From Akkermansia muciniphila (lineage in GTDB: Bacteria > Verrucomicrobiota > Verrucomicrobiia > Limisphaerales > SIAT01), in assembly GCA_945860945.1 (NCBI GenBank), contig CAMASG010000019.1, positions 1 through 40,798 of the forward strand: a DNA stretch of 40,798 bases. The letters are read 5' to 3'. Of the stretch, positions 27,787-38,765 are shown in pieces. Below the pieces are notes generated by a model. The model ran no database searches and had not been told where the DNA came from. It worked only from the letters and a program-made list of their open reading frames with translations. The stretch's first letter is position 1. Every line of letters starts with the position of its first letter. Made by a program: the position numbers and the translations under genes.

Positions 27787-28407
27787 TTACTTGTCGGAAA
27801 GCTTCAGCAACTCCTCAGCGGACCACGGTGCTGTGCGGCTCTTCTCGGTGTCGCGAATCTTTTTGACTTGGTCGGGCGTGACGGCGGAGAAGGTGTGGTT
27901 CCAGTCCTTGTTGCGGCGGACGTAGCTGATGACCGAGGCGATCTGCTGGTCGGTCATGTTGTCCTTCCACGGCACCATGGCGTTGTTGAAGTCCAATCCG
28001 TTGACCTTGATCGGCCCTTGAATGCCGTGAAGCACGAGGCGGATAATGCGGTTCGGCCCTTCGGTCTTGACCCAATCGGATCCGGCGAGCGGCGGGAATT
28101 GTCCGGGCGAGCCGAGGCCGGAGGCTTGATGGCACGCGGCGCAGTTCTGACTGTAAAGCTTGCGGCCTTCGAGAAAGGCGATGCGCTCGGGATCTTTCGG
28201 CAGGAAATCTTCGAGCTGCTTGGTGGAAACGTAGGGTGCGAATACTTGAGCGGAGAATCCGCCGTCGCTCTCATCGAACTTGACCGTTCCGAAATACGCC
28301 ACGACAGCGAGGGCGACAATCACCCAGATGGGGAAGGCTCCAGCGGCGGCTTTCGGCTCAGCCGCTTCGGGCGGGAGCGATGAAAATTTTTGCGTGTCCG
28401 CGTTCAT
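27787..28407 (-). CDS. Membrane-anchored monoheme cytochrome c
   Basis: 206 aa; one TM; LYSQNCAACHQASGLGSPGQFPPLAGSDWV; 4-nt overlap with the upstream gene. Confidence 0.88.
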   Translation of the reverse strand: MNADTQKFSSLPPEAAEPKAAAGAFPIWVIVALAVVAYFGTVKFDESDGGFSAQVFAPYVSTKQLEDFLPKDPERIAFLEGRKLYSQNCAACHQASGLGSPGQFPPLAGSDWVKTEGPNRIIRLVLHGIQGPIKVNGLDFNNAMVPWKDNMTDQQIASVISYVRRNKDWNHTFSAVTPDQVKKIRDTEKSRTAPWSAEELLKLSDK

Positions 28408-29072
28408 TTCTTGGCAGGGGAATTGGTGCTGGGCGCCGAGAGCGTGGCCGGTTTGGGTTTGGTCGGCAACGGCGCCTCAAAGAGCGGCGCATCCGAACGC
28501 AGGCTGCGCAGGTAAGCAACCAGTGCGAGGGCATCGGCTTTCGGAACCATCTCGTAGCCTTCGATGCGCTTGGCTTCCACGTCCGGCAGTTTGAGGGCGT
28601 CCAGCGATGGCTTGGCGCCGATGGCGCGTTTCGTGAAGAGGAAACGATACGACGGCATCACGGAATTCTCGACCACGAGACGCGGCTTGTAGAGATGAAG
28701 GAGGTGCCAATTGTCGTCGATCTGACGCGCGCCGATGTTGGCGAGATCCGGTCCGATGCGCGAGGAGCCGAGCATCACCGGCGTGTCGAAGAGATAATCC
28801 TGCGCGACCGTGCGGCGCGCGCCCCAACCGCGGGCGATGTCCGCTCCCGGCCGCACCTGCTGCGTATGGCACGCGGCGCAGTTGTTCGCGCGATAGACAT
28901 CCGCGCCTTGCTGGGCGAGACCCGAGCGGGCGGATGGATAAATCTGACCGGTCTCCTCGATCTCGACCGGCTGGAGTTGGCCGAGCTGGAGTTGCGGCCA
29001 GACGACGAGTCCGAACCACGAGGTGGATAGCGCGGCGAAAATGCCGAACAGCAAAAGCGGGGCGTGATTCAT
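28404..29072 (-). CDS. CcoO/FixO-like cbb3 oxidase subunit II (monoheme c)
   Basis: 222 aa; YRANNCAACHTQQVRPG, RIGPDLANIGARQIDDNWHLLHLYKPRLVVENSVMPSYRFLF. Confidence 0.88.
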   Translation of the reverse strand: MNHAPLLLFGIFAALSTSWFGLVVWPQLQLGQLQPVEIEETGQIYPSARSGLAQQGADVYRANNCAACHTQQVRPGADIARGWGARRTVAQDYLFDTPVMLGSSRIGPDLANIGARQIDDNWHLLHLYKPRLVVENSVMPSYRFLFTKRAIGAKPSLDALKLPDVEAKRIEGYEMVPKADALALVAYLRSLRSDAPLFEAPLPTKPKPATLSAPSTNSPAKK

Positions 29073-30508
29073 CGGGCACCTCCGTTCGATTCAGCAGTGC
29101 AACTGGCGAGTGCGGCGCACGGGCAGAACCGGCTCGCGAGCAGCTTCACCAGATTTACCACCAAGAGCAGTGAGCTGGCCAGCCAGAGAATCTCACCGAT
29201 CGTGGTGATGCGGTAAGCCCTCATCGCTGTGCGGGAGATTTGATTGAAGTCAGCGCTCGGATCGAGCAATCCCATCCACTGCTGCCAACCGGCGAACGCC
29301 AGCGGCAGCGCTACGAGCATCACGCCCGCCACAGCGAGCTTGTGGTGCCATTTCATGGGGTTGGCGCACGGCCAATCCGCATCGGCCAACCGCGGCACGA
29401 TGTGGTAAATCGCGGCGAACATCGCCATCGAAAACGCGCCGTAGAAAGCGATGTGCTTCACCGCGGCGCTGTAGTAGGTGAATTGAACCGCTTCGCTGAT
29501 GAGCGGGTTTATCGCCATCACCAGCGTCGCCAGAAGATAGAAGACCAAACCGGACCCCGCGAAGGCCAGCACGCGGCAATCGGCGCCGAACACTCGCTGA
29601 CCGCCGGCTGTGACGTGGAGATTCCACGCCACGACGAACAGCGGGAAGATCATCAACAGGCTTGCGAAGCTGCTCATCCGCACCATCCAGAGCGGCAACG
29701 GTGCGCCGCTGTGCAGGCCGGTCCAACCGCCGAGCACGAGCAGCATCCAGAAACCGATCTGCGCGTAACCGCGGCTGTAGAGCGGGCGATTGAGCAGCTT
29801 CGGCACGAGATAGAAAATCACCGCCAACGCTGCGCCGCCGAGCCAGATTTCGCGGAGCACCGCACCCGCCCACGCGTTGATGGCCGCCTGCGCGACGCCG
29901 CGCACGGGGTTAATCAAGAGGAGGCTGTGCACGGTGAGATACGCCCACGGCAACGCAAACAGGCCCGCGAGCAGATACCACTGCGAGACGTAGCTGTCGC
30001 GCTCGCGGCGTTGCAAATAGGTCGCGACCGCGCAGAGGGCGATGGCCGTGTAGGCGGTGAGCAGCGCCGGCACTGCGTAGGACGGAAACTCAAAACCTTC
30101 GTAGCCGCTGCTGTCACCAGCGAGAATGCCGCCGACACCGACCGTCACAGCGAGGTTCCAGATGATTGCACCGAGCAACGCGACGATCGGCCGAACGAGC
30201 GGCGTGCCACCGAGGCGTGCGAGCATCCAGAGCGTGACGCCGAGAATCGCTTGAGCGGCGAATCCGAAGAGGAATGCGTTGCTGGAAGCGGCGAGGATGC
30301 GGCCGTAGGTCAACTCAGCACCGCGCACGAGCAGCAGCGGTTGGTGCATCTTGAGCGAAGCAATCAATCCGAGCGAACCGGAGGCGACCAACCAGAGCAA
30401 CGCGCTGGTGAAAAGGAACAGTACCGGGGCGCGGCACGATGCGTCCACTTCCGCGGAGGCGGCTGGGGCGTTCGCGCGCGATTCGGTTTGGGTCGAGAGG
30501 CTCATCAA
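29069..30508 (-). CDS. CcoN-like (heme-copper oxidase subunit I family) protein with degenerate ligand motifs
   Basis: 479 aa, about 12 TM; CcoN-like landmarks TYGRILAASSNAFLFGF, IFYLVPKLLNRPLYS, TGLHSGAPLPLWM, AVKHIAFYGAFSMAMFAAIYHIVPRL, but most expected ligand His are absent. Confidence 0.75.
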   Translation of the reverse strand: MMSLSTQTESRANAPAASAEVDASCRAPVLFLFTSALLWLVASGSLGLIASLKMHQPLLLVRGAELTYGRILAASSNAFLFGFAAQAILGVTLWMLARLGGTPLVRPIVALLGAIIWNLAVTVGVGGILAGDSSGYEGFEFPSYAVPALLTAYTAIALCAVATYLQRRERDSYVSQWYLLAGLFALPWAYLTVHSLLLINPVRGVAQAAINAWAGAVLREIWLGGAALAVIFYLVPKLLNRPLYSRGYAQIGFWMLLVLGGWTGLHSGAPLPLWMVRMSSFASLLMIFPLFVVAWNLHVTAGGQRVFGADCRVLAFAGSGLVFYLLATLVMAINPLISEAVQFTYYSAAVKHIAFYGAFSMAMFAAIYHIVPRLADADWPCANPMKWHHKLAVAGVMLVALPLAFAGWQQWMGLLDPSADFNQISRTAMRAYRITTIGEILWLASSLLLVVNLVKLLASRFCPCAALASCTAESNGGAR

Positions 30509-30547: not shown

Positions 30548-30919
30548 TCACTCGAAATCAATCTTCGGCAACGGCGCGATGGATTTGTCCACGCGCTGCA
30601 GCAGGTTGCTGCGGCCGGCGGCGGGGTTGTCCCATTCCTTCACCGTGAGCTTCATCGCCTCGGCGACGGGCAGACGGACAATCTTGCGCACGGGATCGAG
30701 ACGGCCGTAGTGCGTGAGCGCCTCGGTGTTGGCGACGTTCAATTCAGCAAGCGCTTTCGCGCGTTCAGCACCGCGGGCTTCGCCAACGACTGAAGGCCGC
30801 GAGGGCGAATAGCGACTGATCACCCAACCGACGAGCACGGCGACGAGCACGACGCCGATAATCTCGCGGACGTAGCGGGACTTGGTGGCCTCTGCGGCCT
30901 TGTCAGTTCCGGTGTTCAT
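30548..30919 (-). CDS. Hypothetical single-TM protein in the ACIII/cytochrome operon
   Basis: 123 aa; REIIGVVLVAVLVGWVISRY TM near the N-terminus; between actF and the ccoN-like gene, touching the actF end at 30919. Confidence 0.75.
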   Translation of the reverse strand: MNTGTDKAAEATKSRYVREIIGVVLVAVLVGWVISRYSPSRPSVVGEARGAERAKALAELNVANTEALTHYGRLDPVRKIVRLPVAEAMKLTVKEWDNPAAGRSNLLQRVDKSIAPLPKIDFE

Positions 30920-32130
30920 TAATGCTCGGCTCCCTGATGGTCACTCGCGGTACTCGGCCCGAGCGCTTCCTCGAACCGCGGATCTTTCTGCGGGTAAGGC
31001 GCGTGGGCGTGAAAATATTTGAGGAACACGAGGGCCAGCACGCCGCCGATGAACGCCATCGAGGCGAGATCGGTCAGCGCGAGGTGGATGCCGGTCGTGT
31101 GGAACACCGGCATGATGTTGTACTGCATGTCGAGGTAATGCATCAGCCAGACCCAGATGGCCATCGGGATCATCAGCTTAAGATTCAGCTTGGCGTCGAT
31201 GCGCAGCAGCAGCAGGAACGGTCCGAAGAAATGACCGAACACGGTGATCATTCCGACCGCCCACCACGTGCCTTGTTCGCGCAGCACGTACCAGAAAGTT
31301 TCCTCCGGCATGGCCGCGTTCCAGATCAGGAAGTACTGCGAGAAATGGATGTACGCGTAGAACACGGTGAAAGCAAAGAGCAGCACGCCCATGTCGTGAA
31401 ACTGGCGGCGGTGCAGGATCGGGATGTAGCCGCGGCGCTGCATCACCATCGCGATGATGTAAGCCGTGGCGAGTGTCGTCCAGACGCTGCCGGCGAAGTA
31501 ATACACACCGTACATCGTCGAGAAGAACTGGTGCTGGAGCGACTTCATCCAGTAAATCGCCGCGAGTGTGAGCGAGAAGGCGAAGATGAAGACGCCGCCG
31601 GCCGCCCATTTGCGCAGCGCGAAAGTGCATTCCACCGAACCGGTCTCGTCCTGCTTCAGCGACCAACTGCGAAGCTTGTAGCTCAGCAGTGTCCACGAAC
31701 CGAAGAGCACGGCGGCCATGATGTAGAACGTCGGCGGGTTGAAGAGCGCGACCTTCACGTGCAACGAGTGGTCCGTGTGCGGATCGATCGTCATCCACGG
31801 ATACAGCTGCGGCGCGAGCCACGCGATCGGGATGAAGAGCAGGCCCATCACCGGCAACAGGAAAGCGATGTGCTCGAGGAAACGGCGGATCGGCACCGAC
31901 CAATTCGAATCGAACAGGTGATGCAAAATCACGAGGAACATCGACCCGAGGCAGATGCTCAGGAAGAACATGAAGGAGACCAGATAGGAATAGCCGAACT
32001 GCTTCAGGTCCGAGAATGCTCCGACGACCAACCCGATGAAGCCGGCCACGACGAGCACGTACGGCAACTTGTCCCAGCCGGATCCCTCATGGGCGACGGT
32101 AGGCGTGGCGATAGCGGCAGGTGAGCTCAT
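30919..32130 (-). CDS. actF: Alternative complex III subunit ActF
   Basis: 403 aa multi-TM quinol:cytochrome c oxidoreductase quinone-binding-type subunit; last gene of the act order. Confidence 0.85.
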   Translation of the reverse strand: MSSPAAIATPTVAHEGSGWDKLPYVLVVAGFIGLVVGAFSDLKQFGYSYLVSFMFFLSICLGSMFLVILHHLFDSNWSVPIRRFLEHIAFLLPVMGLLFIPIAWLAPQLYPWMTIDPHTDHSLHVKVALFNPPTFYIMAAVLFGSWTLLSYKLRSWSLKQDETGSVECTFALRKWAAGGVFIFAFSLTLAAIYWMKSLQHQFFSTMYGVYYFAGSVWTTLATAYIIAMVMQRRGYIPILHRRQFHDMGVLLFAFTVFYAYIHFSQYFLIWNAAMPEETFWYVLREQGTWWAVGMITVFGHFFGPFLLLLRIDAKLNLKLMIPMAIWVWLMHYLDMQYNIMPVFHTTGIHLALTDLASMAFIGGVLALVFLKYFHAHAPYPQKDPRFEEALGPSTASDHQGAEH

Positions 32131-32134
32131 AGCC

Positions 32135-32749
32135 TTATTTCAATTGCGCGCGCTCGGCGGCGGAAAGTTCGTCCTCAAATCCAAGCCGGCTGCGCTGCAG
32201 AGCGCGCAGGTAGGCAACAATCGCCCAGCGGTCGTCGATCGCGATGTTCGAGCGGTAGCCGCCCATCAAATTGCGTCCGTCGGAGATGACGTGGAAAAGC
32301 TCGCCGTCCGGCAGCTTCACGATGCGTGCGTCGTGCAGGTTCGCGACCACGCCCATCGCGCCAATCTTTTTCGTGATGCCGTTGCCGTCGCCCTGCGCAC
32401 CGTGGCACGGCAGGCAGCTGATGGCGTAACGATCGCGGCCGCGAGCGAGCAGTTGCGGCGTGACCTTCACGGGCAGAAGCTCGACGAAGTTCGTCACACC
32501 CGACACGCGGCCGGTGTTCTTCGGCGTCGAGGCGAAAGGCGTGCCGCGAGCAATCGAACCCTCAACCGGAAGCTGCGAGCTGCGGCCGTTCGGCAGCAGC
32601 GCGTTCGGCTCCTGCGGGCGAAGCTTCGGCTGCCGATCCATGTCGGGGAAAATCTCCAGTGGCGGCTTGCGCGAGATGTCCCCGCGGAAACCGAGCACGC
32701 TCACCACGAGCGTCGCGACCAAAGTCAATCCGAGCACAAAGTAGCGCAT
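32135..32749 (-). CDS. actE: Alternative complex III cytochrome c subunit ActE
   Basis: 204 aa; YAISCLPCHGAQGDGNG; GELFHVISDGRNLMGGYRSNIAIDDRWAIVAYLRALQRS. Confidence 0.88.
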   Translation of the reverse strand: MRYFVLGLTLVATLVVSVLGFRGDISRKPPLEIFPDMDRQPKLRPQEPNALLPNGRSSQLPVEGSIARGTPFASTPKNTGRVSGVTNFVELLPVKVTPQLLARGRDRYAISCLPCHGAQGDGNGITKKIGAMGVVANLHDARIVKLPDGELFHVISDGRNLMGGYRSNIAIDDRWAIVAYLRALQRSRLGFEDELSAAERAQLK

Positions 32750-32750
32750 G

Positions 32751-33281
32751 TTACTCCTCCACCTGCTCGATGTGCTTGCTGCCGGCCGTCTCCAGCAGCT
32801 TGCGGGTTTCTGTCTCCGAGTACTTGCTATCGGCCGTCTCGATGACGACGTAGAACTTGTCGTGCGTCACCTGCGCGAACCGGCGGTTCCGGAGCAGCGG
32901 ATGGTGCAGGCGCGGCAGGCCGTTGAGGAAAAGCATGCCGAAGATGGTCGCGAACGACGCGAAGAGAATCGTCATCTCGTAGCTCACTGGGAAAGCGAAG
33001 AGCGGGCTGAAGAGCGGTTTGCCGCCGACGATGATGCGGTAGTCGACCGCGTTCTGGAACCAGATCATCAGCATGCCGCCGGTGTATCCGCACACGCCGC
33101 CGATGAAAGTGAACCATCCGACGGGCGAGTTTTTAATTCCCATCGCCTCGTCCATCCCGTGTACGGGGAACGGCGTGTGGACATCCCAACTCTTGAAGCC
33201 GGCCGCGTTCACGGCGCGCGCTGCGGCCATCACGTCCGCCGGCGTGTCGAACTCCGCGATGACTCCGTAAGGCTTGCTCAT
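32751..33281 (-). CDS. actD: DUF3341 protein, alternative complex III ActD
   Basis: 176 aa; YGVIAEFDTPADVMAAARAVNAAGFKSWDVHTPFPVHGMDEAMG. Confidence 0.92.
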   Translation of the reverse strand: MSKPYGVIAEFDTPADVMAAARAVNAAGFKSWDVHTPFPVHGMDEAMGIKNSPVGWFTFIGGVCGYTGGMLMIWFQNAVDYRIIVGGKPLFSPLFAFPVSYEMTILFASFATIFGMLFLNGLPRLHHPLLRNRRFAQVTHDKFYVVIETADSKYSETETRKLLETAGSKHIEQVEE

Positions 33282-34708
33282 CAGTGGTGCCCTCCCTTGG
33301 CGCCGCCCAGCGGGTGGTGCGGATCGGCCTGCGGCGTGACGCCTTTCACTTCAGCAATCGCGATCATTGGCAGGAACCGCATAAACAACAGGAACAGCGT
33401 GCAGAACAATCCGAAGCTGCCGACGAATGTCAGAATGTCCACGTAGGTCGGGCTGAAGTAACCCCAACTCGACGGCAGGTAATCGCGGTGCAGCGACGTC
33501 ACGATGATGACGAAGCGTTCAAACCACATCCCGATGTTCACGAAGATGGAGATGATGAACACCGCCACCAAGTTGGTGCGGATTGTCTTGAACCAGAAAA
33601 GCTGCGGGCAAATCACGTTGCACGAAATCATGCTCCAGTAAGCCCACCAGTACGGGCCGAACGCGCGGTTCTTGAAGGCGTACAGTTCGTTCGGGTTGCC
33701 GCCGTACCACGCGATGAAGAACTCCATCCCGTACGCGTAAGCGACAATCGAGCCGGTGGCCAACACCACTTTGCCCATCAAATCCACGTGACGCACCGTG
33801 ATCAAATCTTCCAGACCGAACAGCGTGCGGATCGGGATCATCAGCGTCAGCACCATGCCGAAGCCGGAGAAAATCGCGCCCGCGACGAAGTACGGCGGGA
33901 AGATCGTCGTGTGCCAACCCGGCACCTGCGACACGGCGAAGTCGAATGACACGATCGAGTGCACGGAGAGGACGAGCGGGGTGGAGAGACCGGCGAGCAG
34001 CAGGTACGCCTTCTCGTAGTTGCTCCAGTGGCGGTTCGAGCCGGTCCAGCCGAGCGCGAAGAAACCGTACGCGAACTTACGCACTTTGCTCGTCGCGCGG
34101 TCACGCATCGTGGCGAGGTCGGGGATGAGGCCAACGTACCAGAAGAGGAGCGAGACCGTGCCGTAGGTCGAGACCGCGAAAACGTCCCACAGCAGCGGGG
34201 AACGGAACTGCGGCCAGAGGCCGTTGCCGTTCGGCACCGGCGCCAAGAAAATCGGCGCAAGCCAAACGCGGCCGACGTGCACGAGCGGGAAAATACCGGC
34301 GCACGCCACAGCGAAGAGCGTCATGGCTTCCGCCGCGCGATTGATGGATGTGCGCCACTTCTGACGCAGCAGGAAAAGAATCGCTGAAATCAGCGTGCCG
34401 GCGTGGCCGATGCCGATCCAGAAAACGAAGTTCGTGATGTCCCACGCCCAGCCGGCAGGCTGGTTCAGACCCCACACGCCGACGCCGGTCGAGATGAGGT
34501 AGCCAATCATCGCGAACATCATTCCCGCCACGGAGGCGCTGATGAGGAAGGCCGGCCACCACCACTTGGGCGTGGGGCCTTCGACGATGGAAGCGACGCG
34601 GTCGGAAATCCAGCCGAGGCTGCGCTGGTTCAACACCAACGGCTCGCGCTCCAGCGCCTTGGGCGTGGAGCCTTTCGTGGCCCATTTATTCTCAACGACG
34701 GGAGCCAT
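33281..34708 (-). CDS. actC: NrfD/PsrC-like membrane subunit, ActC
   Basis: 475 aa multi-TM NrfD family; [39 protein letters not shown]. Confidence 0.92.
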
Positions 34709-37700
34709 TAGTGCGCTCCTTTCTTGGCCTCGTGCCCGCTCTTGCCGTTGTCTCCGGCTTTGTGGTCAACGAACGGACTGGCGTTCTTCTCGAACTTCTC
34801 GCCAGTGTGCTCGGTGAGGCTGAACGGATATTCGTGGTAATCAGGCATCGCCGGATTCGGGTTGCGAACCTTGGCGAGATAAGTGACGCGCGCACGATTG
34901 TCGAGGAAGCCGAGCACCGCGTAGTCGCGCGCCTGCAACTTGAGCTGCGAGACGTGGCTCTTGGGATCGAGGATGTTTCCGAAAACAATCGCCTCGGCGG
35001 GGCAAGCCTGCTGGCAAGCGGTCTTCAGAGCGCCATCGCGCACGGCGACATCGCCGGAGGCTCCGACCTTCACCTTTTGGGCGATCTTGGCCTGCTCGAT
35101 GCGCTGCACGCAGAACGTGCACTTCTCCATCACGCCGCGCATGCGGACGCTCACCTCTGGGTTGCGGGCGAGCTTGAGCAACTCCCATTCATCGGACGGA
35201 CGCTTCGCGAGCGGTCCAGCGTAAAGGTTCTCAATCGGGCGCTTATTGTAATCGAAGAAATTGAACCGGCGCACTTTCCACGCGCAGTTGTTCGAGCAGT
35301 AACGCGTGCCGATGCAGCGGTTGTAGGTCATCAGGTTGAGACCTTCCTCGTCGTGCACGGTCGCGTTGACGGGGCAAACAGTCTCGCACGGGGCATTCTC
35401 GCAATGCTGGCAGAGCATCGGCTGGTTGACGACCTGCGGTTCGTCGATCCAATCGAGCTTGACCTGATCCACGTCCGTGCCGGTCTCGTTGCGCTTGAGA
35501 TTCGGCAGGCCGGTGAAATAACGGTCGATGCGCATCCAGTGCATCTCGCGGCCGCGGATCACTTGATCCTTGCCGACGATCGGGATGTTGTTCTCGCTCT
35601 GACAAGCGATGACGCACGCCGAGCAGCCGACGCACATGTTCAGATCAATCGACATGCCCCACTGATGCACATCGCTCTTGAGCGTGGGGTGGGTGGTGTA
35701 CGGATGCTCGTAAATCGGGAGCGGCAGGCCGGTCTTCGGATCCACCGGGATGTGCTTGGCATGGGCTGGCGAATCCAGATCCATATTCTTCGCGAAATCC
35801 GGCTTCTTATTGAACTGCGCCAGATTCGCCTCGCGCACGATCGGACGGCCTTCCATCGACCAATGATCCTGCGTGCAGGCGAACGGGGAAACGGAACCGG
35901 TCTTCGAAAGTGTCGCGCCCGCGGCGAAGTGGACCGCCGTCGTGGTGCGGAGCTTGTAGGCGTTGAAGCCGACCGTGTCCTGCTTCAGGAAATCCGCGCC
36001 GCGGCTGCTGCTGCCGCCGGGGATTCCGGGGCGCATCGGATTGTTGCTCGGCTTGAAATTGGCGATGCGACCTCCCTTTTCGCGGCCGTAGCCCAGAGCG
36101 ATGCCGACGGTGAAATCCGCTTGGCCGGGCTGAATCCAGATCGGGCCCTTCACGCTGCGCACGCCGAGCTTGAGATCGACCACGTCGTTGTTCTGAACAC
36201 CGAGCGCGGCGGCCGTCTTGCGGCTCATCAGCACCGCGTTGTCCCACGTGATCTTCGTGATCGGATCAGGCAACTCCTGCAGCCAGCCGTTGTTCGAGAA
36301 CCGGCCGTCGTCGAGGCTGTAGTCGCGTGTGAAAATGACTTCGAGATTGTCCACGCCCGCCGCCTTCGCAGCCACGCTGGCCGCCACCGGCACCACCACT
36401 TCGTTCAGCACCACATCCACCGGCTTGGCCGTGCTGCCGGCGAGGAAGCCGTCGTGCAGGAACCTCTTCCACTTCTCCTCGGTGTTGCCGCCGTTGGAGA
36501 GCGCCTTGAACGTTTCGCGCGTGAGATCGTAAGGCTTGGTCGCGGCGAGACCCGCGAGGCGCGCGAGCACTTCGACCTCGGTCAATCCGTCAAAGAGCGG
36601 CGCGATGAGCGGCTGCACCGGGACCAGCGTGCCGTCGCTCGTCCGGGCGTCGCCCCACGTCTCGAGATAATGCGCGGCGGGCAGATGCAGAGCCGCACCG
36701 GCAGCGAACGTCTCATCCTCGTAATATCCGAGGCGGACGACGGTCTTGGCCTTCTTCTGCGCGGCGGCCCAGTCGAGATCCGACGGAGCGTTGTAAGCGG
36801 GGTTGCCACCGAGAATCACGAGCGTGGAAACTTGGCCAGCCTTCAACACCCCAGCGAGCGCGTTCAGGTTGTCTTCGGACGGCGCGGGCGCGGGCAGGAA
36901 CTGGACGGTCTTGCCGTTGTTGCCGAGCGCGGCGTTGATGGCGTGCGCGAAAAGATGGACGGCGAGCGGCTGGCGATGGCCGGCGAGCACCAGCGAGCTG
37001 CCCTTGTGCTTGAGCAAGTCATTCGCGCATTCCTCGGCCCACTTCTGCTCGTGTGCGCTGAAACCCGCGGGCCAATTCACTGCCTGTCCGCGGGCCTTCG
37101 CGAGAACGGCGGCGGCGAGCACAGCCACGCCCGACGCAGCAATGCGCAGACGATGATCGGCGTTCGCGCCGGTCTGGCTCATCAATGGCTCGGCCACGTA
37201 AAGCCGGTTCATCTTGTCGCCCGGCTTAGAAATCTTGCGGCCCTTCGCGAAGTCACGGATCGAACGCTGCGCGTCCTCTTCGCCGCCGATGAAATCGCAA
37301 TCGAGCGAGAGGATCACCTCCGCCTTGTCGATCTGCGGATACGGGCGCACGTCCTGACCGTACGCGGCGCGAGCGGAGGCGCGGTGGATGTCGAAGTCCA
37401 CGGGCTCATAGACGAACCAGCGGGCCTTCGGGAACTTCTCGGCGACGAGCTGCTGCACGCGCGTGCGCGTCGGCGAATTACTCCGCTCGAAGAGGAAACA
37501 GAGGCCTTCGCCCCCATTCGCGGCGGCGGCGGTGGAAAGCGCGGACAGCTTCGCCAGCGCTTCCTCGCGGGAGATTGTTTTGCTCTCGGCACGGAAATTG
37601 CGCGCACGATCGGCGTCGTAAAGATTGAGCAGCGAAGCCTGCGCGAACACGTCCGTGCCGCCGGTGGCCTGCGGGTGTTCCTTGTTGCCTTCGACCTTCA

Positions 37701-38064
37701 CAGGCCGGCCGTCGTGGGATTTCACGAGCAGCGGCACCGCACCCGCGCGCGTCGGCATCGACGTCGCGTAATACTGCGCCACGCCGTGGATGTACCCTTC
37801 GGGCTGCTTGGTGAACGGGACAATCTTCTCGACCGGCCGGCGGCAACCGGTGCCGATGAGTCCGAGACCGGCCAGCGCGAACGGCGCGGCCATTAGCTTG
37901 ATGAAATCGCGGCGGGTGCTCTCGTCCTGCAGATCGCTCGCGCCAGAGGGGAACTCGCGCGTGGCCCAGTCCTTGAACTCGGGAGTGTCGGAGAGTTGCT
38001 CGAGGCTGCGCCAATAGACGACGCCGTTATCCGGCTCTGGAGAGACAGGGGGAATCGTTTTCAT
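34708..38064 (-). CDS. actB: ActB: molybdopterin-oxidoreductase-like plus Fe-S ferredoxin fusion
   Basis: Start [50 protein letters not shown] Tat/lipobox; [44 protein letters not shown]...CQQACP. Confidence 0.95.
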
Positions 38065-38711
38065 CGATGGCAGGCGGAGCAATTCTGCGAGGCGTTGACC
38101 TTCCAGTCGTGGACGAACTTCGCGCCATCACGCTGGGCAAAGCCCGGTGGTGCCTGCCAATTGAGGTTATACACTTGGTCGGGCGGACGAATCTTCTCAG
38201 CAGGGTTGCGGTGGCAATCGACGCAGAAGCTCATCGAGAGCGGCTTCTCGTGCCGCACCTCGTCCATCTTGTCGACGCGCCCGTGGCAATGCACGCAGCT
38301 CACACCGCGGTTCACGTGGACCGAGTGGTTGAAAAACACGTAGTCCGGCGTCTTGTGAATCTGCGTCCACGCGATCGGCACGTTGTTGGAATAGCTGTTG
38401 CGCACCAGCGTCAGCTTCGGATCATCCTTCAGCACTTGGTTGTGGCAGTTCATGCACGTGCTCGCCGCCGGCACGTTCGAGTACCACGATTTCTCCACGC
38501 CGTTGTGGCAGTAGCGGCAGTCGAGGCCGAGTTGGCCCGCGTGGATCGTGTGCGAGAACGCCACCGGCTGCACCGGCTGGTAGCCGACGTTCGCGTACTT
38601 GTTGGTGAAGTAGTAGGTCACGCCGGCCGCCGCCGCGCCACCCACGAGCACCGCACCGGTGATGAGCCACACCGGCAACCGGTTCGTCCACTTTGGAAAA
38701 ATATCAGACAT
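38061..38711 (-). CDS. actA: ActA: pentaheme cytochrome c (cytochrome c3-like)
   Basis: Start MSDIFPKWTNRLPVW; five CxxCH motifs (CRYCH, CMNCH, CVHCH, CVDCH, CSACH); ATGA overlap with actB. Confidence 0.93.
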   Translation of the reverse strand: MSDIFPKWTNRLPVWLITGAVLVGGAAAAGVTYYFTNKYANVGYQPVQPVAFSHTIHAGQLGLDCRYCHNGVEKSWYSNVPAASTCMNCHNQVLKDDPKLTLVRNSYSNNVPIAWTQIHKTPDYVFFNHSVHVNRGVSCVHCHGRVDKMDEVRHEKPLSMSFCVDCHRNPAEKIRPPDQVYNLNWQAPPGFAQRDGAKFVHDWKVNASQNCSACHR

Positions 38712-38765
38712 GCCAAAAAATAGCGGGGCGAAGCCTAGCGGCATCCAGCGCGAGCGCAAGCCGTT

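Follow-up and report, generated by a model that had tools for sequence, protein, structure and literature searches.

The gene at positions 29069..30508 on the minus strand of the window, that is, of the whole stretch of 40,798 nucleotides that was analysed, encodes a CcoN-like membrane protein that lacks the haem and CuB ligand set of a haem-copper oxidase. We call this protein and its orthologs N. The active site has been lost and yet the gene has been kept within the cluster of the alternative complex III (ACIII); therefore, N is probably now a structural holder for electron-carrying cytochromes. The reading that we favour, and consider probable, is that N is a cofactor-free membrane scaffold which seats the two cytochromes encoded downstream, O and P, at ACIII. 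It starts from what we observed regarding the lost ligands, the fold, the operon, the haem motifs of O and P, the selection on the gene, the recurrence of the loss and the presence of another oxidase. To our knowledge, it is very unusual for a haem-copper oxidase fold to persist with no complete metal site.

Regarding its identity, the open reading frame of the window N has 479 aa and begins with TTG followed by ATG. It matches the COX1 family PF00115 of Pfam with 124 bits (cut-off 34.8), whereas the ccoN equivalog of NCBIfam, TIGR00780, gives it just 83 bits against a cut-off of 583, which the act-linked relatives with full ligands also miss, at 220-246 bits. The AlphaFold (AF2) model has a pLDDT of 92.2, a pTM of 0.92 and 12 membrane helices, and its top PDB matches in Foldseek are the CcoN chains of cbb3 oxidases (3mk7_A, TM 0.86, 2.2 A). 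By fold and descent, N is a member of the haem-copper oxidase superfamily, and the Pfam score, the quality of the model and the conservation of the protein rule out a chance frame or frame artefact. Compared with the cbb3 CcoN (3mk7), N is alike in fold, helix order, loop landmarks and CcoO-like partner, but it differs in having no haem/CuB ligand set and in scoring far under the ccoN cut-off. The locus differs too, with no CcoI alongside and a mono-haem P.

The seven catalytic positions were defined on the CcoN of Pseudomonas stutzeri (3mk7), namely H60, H207, Y251, H257, H258, H345 and H347. Aligned to these, the window N has S, A, G, H, S, V and H, which leaves at most two of the six ligand His that a functional haem-copper oxidase carries (the H257-like and the H347-like). 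None of the metal sites is complete: the loss of H60 breaks the low-spin haem pair, one of the three CuB His is left, and neither the His of the high-spin haem nor the Tyr remains. Y251 is a Gly, and the residues aligned with T215, Y237 and S240 of cbb3, which we take to be proton path residues, are replaced; these three positions fall from at least 95% to 11-27% in the ligandless set, in about two thirds of which H60 has become Ala or Ser. The two remaining His are no family feature, as H257 is retained in 9% and H347 in 19% of the ligandless set, and a same-genus relative (L004) has Y instead of the H257-like His and keeps the H347-like one. Furthermore, column conservation among the ligandless N revealed no alternative conserved membrane pair of His, Met or Cys. 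Judged from its residues, N is unable to reduce oxygen by the known mechanism, and in the model its metal sites are gone and its fold is intact.

A first-pass annotation, made without database searches, had already described most of this from short motifs, every one of which is present in the translation. It held that the fold landmarks persist, as the COX1 match and the TM of 0.86 to 3mk7 bear out, that most haem/CuB ligands are lost, that the HH pair is cut to one His (the H257-like is kept and H258 is S) and that the b3 ligand is lost (H345 is V and the H347-like His is left). The profile alignment and the AlphaFold mapping of ligands that it proposed gave the same picture: the COX1 profile matched and the ccoN profile failed, and a confident CcoN fold has no complete metal site. 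His at all six ligand positions in a structural alignment, which it had named as the contrary case, was not seen (S, A, H, S, V, H).

N belongs to a ten-gene operon, actABCDEF-X-N-O-P, that runs on the minus strand from 38759 down to 27787. It comprises ActA, a penta-haem cytochrome c with five CxxCH (38061..38759; translation and synteny), ActB, a fused molybdopterin-like and iron-sulfur protein (34708..38082; sequence and synteny), the NrfD-like subunit ActC (33281..34708; PF03916, 75 bits), ActD (32751..33281; PF11821, 216 bits), the mono-haem cytochrome c ActE (32135..32749; PF13442 and synteny) and ActF (30919..32130), which matches the solved ActF 6f0k_F with an E value of 1.9e-58. The Pfam matches, the 6f0k_F match and synteny thus give the complete ActABCDEF set of ACIII. 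Between ActF and N lies X (30548..30919), a small protein with one apparent membrane helix, syntenic in most loci and without a family match in Pfam, NCBIfam or PDB. Downstream of N are two membrane-anchored mono-haem cytochromes c, namely the FixO/CcoO-like O (28404..29072; PF02433, 99 bits), with CAACH and VMPSY, and P (27787..28407; PF00034, 64 bits), with CAACH. The overlaps N/O and O/P are 4 bp each, the downstream start lying on the upstream stop.

The haem motif of O is intact. Unlike the di-haem CcoP of cbb3, P has just one CxxCH, and it scores 40 bits with the ccoP model TIGR00782, under the cut-off of 180. CxxCH is present in 89 out of 89 O beside ligandless N, in 85 out of 85 beside ligand-complete N and, reading whole frames, in every detected P. 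Eight loci with an apparently haem-less O turned out to be an artefact of start choice, since the whole frames all show CxxCH. The CcoO-like neighbour with CxxCH and VMPSY had been recognised in the first-pass annotation, which also tied N to ACIII; the subunit is indeed genetically fixed there, in an operon conserved across order and class, and this gene order suggests that N, O and P would be a physical part of the complex. The 4 kb downstream contain CcoI, the copper ATPase that serves in assembling cbb3, in 8 of the 71 ligand-complete loci and in 0 of the 75 ligandless ones (Fisher p 0.0025, in a test that ignores shared ancestry).

A homologue of the window N was found in 53 of 58 relatives, and nearly all the loci read show the same operon. 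At the level of the class, the N profile was matched by 235 of 286 genomes, a count that includes ordinary CcoN; 60 further loci from the class and 80 named loci were read, and the act-N-O-P order is kept in most genomes searched of order and class. Among the 179 act-linked N (those with ActF just upstream), 87 have all seven residues, 91 have 0-3, and the only intermediate keeps six, with H207 changed to Arg. The proportion 87:91 is no population frequency, because loci were chosen by their score, and the named ones with patterns drawn from ligand-complete members, which biases these named loci to such forms. The point of this count is the near absence of intermediates, rather than the ratio. 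The ligand-complete orthologs, which the first-pass annotation did not foresee, share the operon slot of N in related bacteria; they occur in many lineages of the class and, act-linked as well, in records titled Planctomycetota (L174, L177 and L219), Planctomycetes bacterium Pan216 being among such records. A C-type oxidase linked to ACIII has been described for Verrucomicrobia (Refojo et al. 2010, as cited in PMC8498564). The window N is its direct homologue, in the same slot after actABCDEF, but the window N and about half of the 179 act-linked copies have no metal ligands. In the open-access literature, which our search covered, we found no report of a ligandless CcoN beside ACIII.

Regarding the origin of the ligandless copies, a first N tree, built without the ligand columns, pointed to a single loss. 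The full N tree requires 2 state changes, the O tree 7 and the P tree 12, whereas the ActC+ActD+ActF tree requires 18, of which well-supported branches force 14, and the single-gene trees of ActC, ActD and ActF 18, 18 and 19. When the long rows are thinned, the N data favour three mixed clades by likelihood (e.g. L123+L125+L132+L154) and another mixed clade is recovered outright, and AU tests on N do not reject mixed clades (p 0.67-0.76). The single loss was therefore judged a long-branch effect: given the Act, O and P trees and the AU tests, we read the two-change N tree as long-branch attraction and infer that wholesale loss of the active site occurred repeatedly, with around 18 state changes on the Act trees. 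The change counts alone give no direction, and a regain of seven residues is not credible; N or N-O-P may, however, also have been transferred in place. The clearest recent case is L132, with AAGVNQQ, while its ActCDF sister L123 keeps the seven residues. A history of one or two ancient losses, after which an N-O-P module passed between lineages, would be compatible with a scaffold function and would account for the low counts of the N, O and P trees. Nevertheless, we consider such a history quite unlikely, since the ActC, ActD and ActF trees each need 18-19 changes, the thinned N data favour three mixed clades in addition to the one recovered outright, and N, O and P are contiguous with the act genes.

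The gene is also under constraint. The three pairwise comparisons among the window gene and its two copies from the same genus give a dN/dS of 0.15-0.19 for N, and of 0.08-0.17 for O, P and ActF. Close pairs of ligand-complete N mostly show 0.03-0.12, and therefore the constraint on the window N is relaxed yet present. Nearly all ligandless N are open frames of around 464-506 aa, with lengths near 489 aa. These open frames and the dN/dS rule out a pseudogene, and on this sequence evidence N is a maintained pseudoenzyme, with its active site lost and purifying selection acting on it; the repurposed, non-oxygen-reducing role read by the first-pass annotation agrees with the ligand loss, the retention in the operon and the selection. 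That N is a decaying remnant, retained by its position among useful genes, is the least credible of the readings, for nearly all copies are open at that length, dN/dS stays at 0.15-0.19 and the gene is kept across dozens of families, even though the ligand positions vary freely even within the window genus and N outpaces its neighbours in ligandless lineages. The rise in entropy in ligandless N is 1.02 bits in the periplasmic half versus 1.29 in the cytoplasmic half (p 0.0003), on a topology assigned from the model helices and the known family orientation; this milder loss of conservation fits a docking role, although the effect is modest.

As to what N does, the first-pass annotation had proposed a relay or anchor. 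The anchor is favoured by the fold, the operon and the haem motifs of O and P, all of them kept, whereas the relay is unsupported, because neither haem has axial ligands and no conserved His/Met/Cys pair replaces them. An N binding haem through other ligands, as electron relay or sensor, is very doubtful for the same lack of a sufficiently conserved column and the change of H60 to Ala or Ser in most ligandless members; it could draw on the H347-like His kept in the window genus and on the small subclade of L116, L124, L126 and L127, the only one that keeps the low-spin haem pair H60/H347 and has lost the binuclear site, and whose members may still carry one haem.

The other oxidases of these genomes bear on a further possibility, in which N is a specific adaptor that links ACIII with an aa3-type oxidase, the three together forming a supercomplex. 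The window genome has one other haem-copper oxidase, of aa3 type, on a separate contig (C12), and cytochrome bd was not found in it. By hand tally, another PF00115 protein occurs in 63 of 64 genomes with a ligandless copy; the 64th, G016, has cytochrome bd. In G064 (99% complete) a ligand-complete N is the only haem-copper oxidase and there is no bd. A ligand-complete N can thus be the sole oxidase of a genome, whereas no ligandless N was seen without a further oxidase. The adaptor is suggested by the order act-N-O-P-aa3 COX1 in pMMO-bearing genomes (Methylacidiphilum- and Methylacidimicrobium-type) and several others, and by the known ACIII-caa3/aa3 supercomplexes (PMC5928083, PMC8361435). 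However, aa3 genes lie downstream in 10 of 71 ligand-complete and 14 of 75 ligandless loci (p 0.51), and thus ligand loss is not significantly tied to a downstream aa3 gene, nor does gene order pinpoint the destination of the electrons. Moreover, the aa3 genes of the window genome sit on another contig and G016 has bd alone. Such a bridge would be a specific version of the scaffold, to which gene order gives no advantage over the general version, and we regard it as unlikely.

In the general scaffold, N would derive from a C-family-like (CcoN-like) oxygen reductase linked to ACIII, in which its ancestor was the catalytic subunit. N no longer has the ligands of the two haems (b and b3) and of CuB, and the cross-linked Tyr and the proton-channel-type residues are lost as well; what it retains are the fold, the place in the operon and the partner cytochromes. 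N would then hold the mono-haem O and P next to ACIII, extending the haem wire, so that O and P could carry the electrons leaving ActA/ActE to a genuine oxidase elsewhere (the aa3-type one in the window genome) or to other acceptors. The supercomplexes of Rhodothermus marinus and Flavobacterium johnsoniae (PMC5928083, PMC8361435) likewise join an oxidase-fold protein and cytochrome c carriers with ACIII genes, but there the oxidase is active. The NrfD-like ActC and ActF (PMC8076601) are cofactor-free membrane anchors of redox subunits, as N probably is, although they are unrelated to N in fold and origin and interact with quinones. We give about even chances to the broader proposal that an oxygen-reductase core became a cofactor-free ACIII subunit recurrently, at least 14 times in one class, N, O and P being standing extra subunits of the verrucomicrobial ACIII that feed interchangeable oxidases. 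The class-wide recurrent loss, with complete and ligandless copies in sister lineages, is a natural experiment on the roles of oxidase subunits beyond catalysis.

Verrucomicrobial methanotrophs have been credited with a cbb3 oxidase beside ACIII (PMC8498564, PMC6688271), and the act-adjacent 'cbb3' of Methylacidiphilum kamchatkense has been tied to high oxygen affinity (PMC6688271). In all six pMMO-bearing genomes of the class that were examined, whose Methylacidiphilum- or Methylacidimicrobium-type labels rest on the pMMO genes and the class, the act-linked N is ligandless (SESSHFV or ADAAHQT). The other COX1-family proteins of one of them, G069, are two of around 430 bits, two of around 250-267 bits and a NorB with a NorC-like gene next to it, none with a strong CcoN-like profile match. 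Because of these two results, the published cbb3 is very probably the ligandless N. Genomes annotated with this oxidase may therefore have none, and surveys of oxygen affinity by gene name would miscount it. The pMMO-bearing loci, when read with long context, show N-O-P followed by an aa3-type COX1, and in G085 ActF and N are around 7 kb apart.

Some minor observations concern single lineages. The pattern with all catalytic residues bar H207, which is Arg, belongs to L105 (G154), whose ActCDF sister L144 is wholly ligandless; it may be a loss that has just begun, or else an error in the sequence. L253, L255 and L256 have a further CcoN-like, ligand-complete protein with the motifs GHAHLVMFG and FIHDL, and ActF was not detected in the short loci read. 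The act operon of L280 (G136) has a gap of more than 4 kb between ActB and ActC, and its branch in the Act tree is very long. The ligandless loci L146, L147, L153, L237 and L246 carry a second gene for a mono-haem cytochrome c, placed between ActF and N. Finally, in at least 18 ligandless loci (L068, L082, L059, L060, L077 and others) O carries, after CxxCH, an insertion of around 60-85 aa, absent from all measurable ligand-complete loci and from the window O, that resembles the C-terminal domain of ribosomal L7/L12 (PF00542, up to 26.3 bits, cut-off 25.9).
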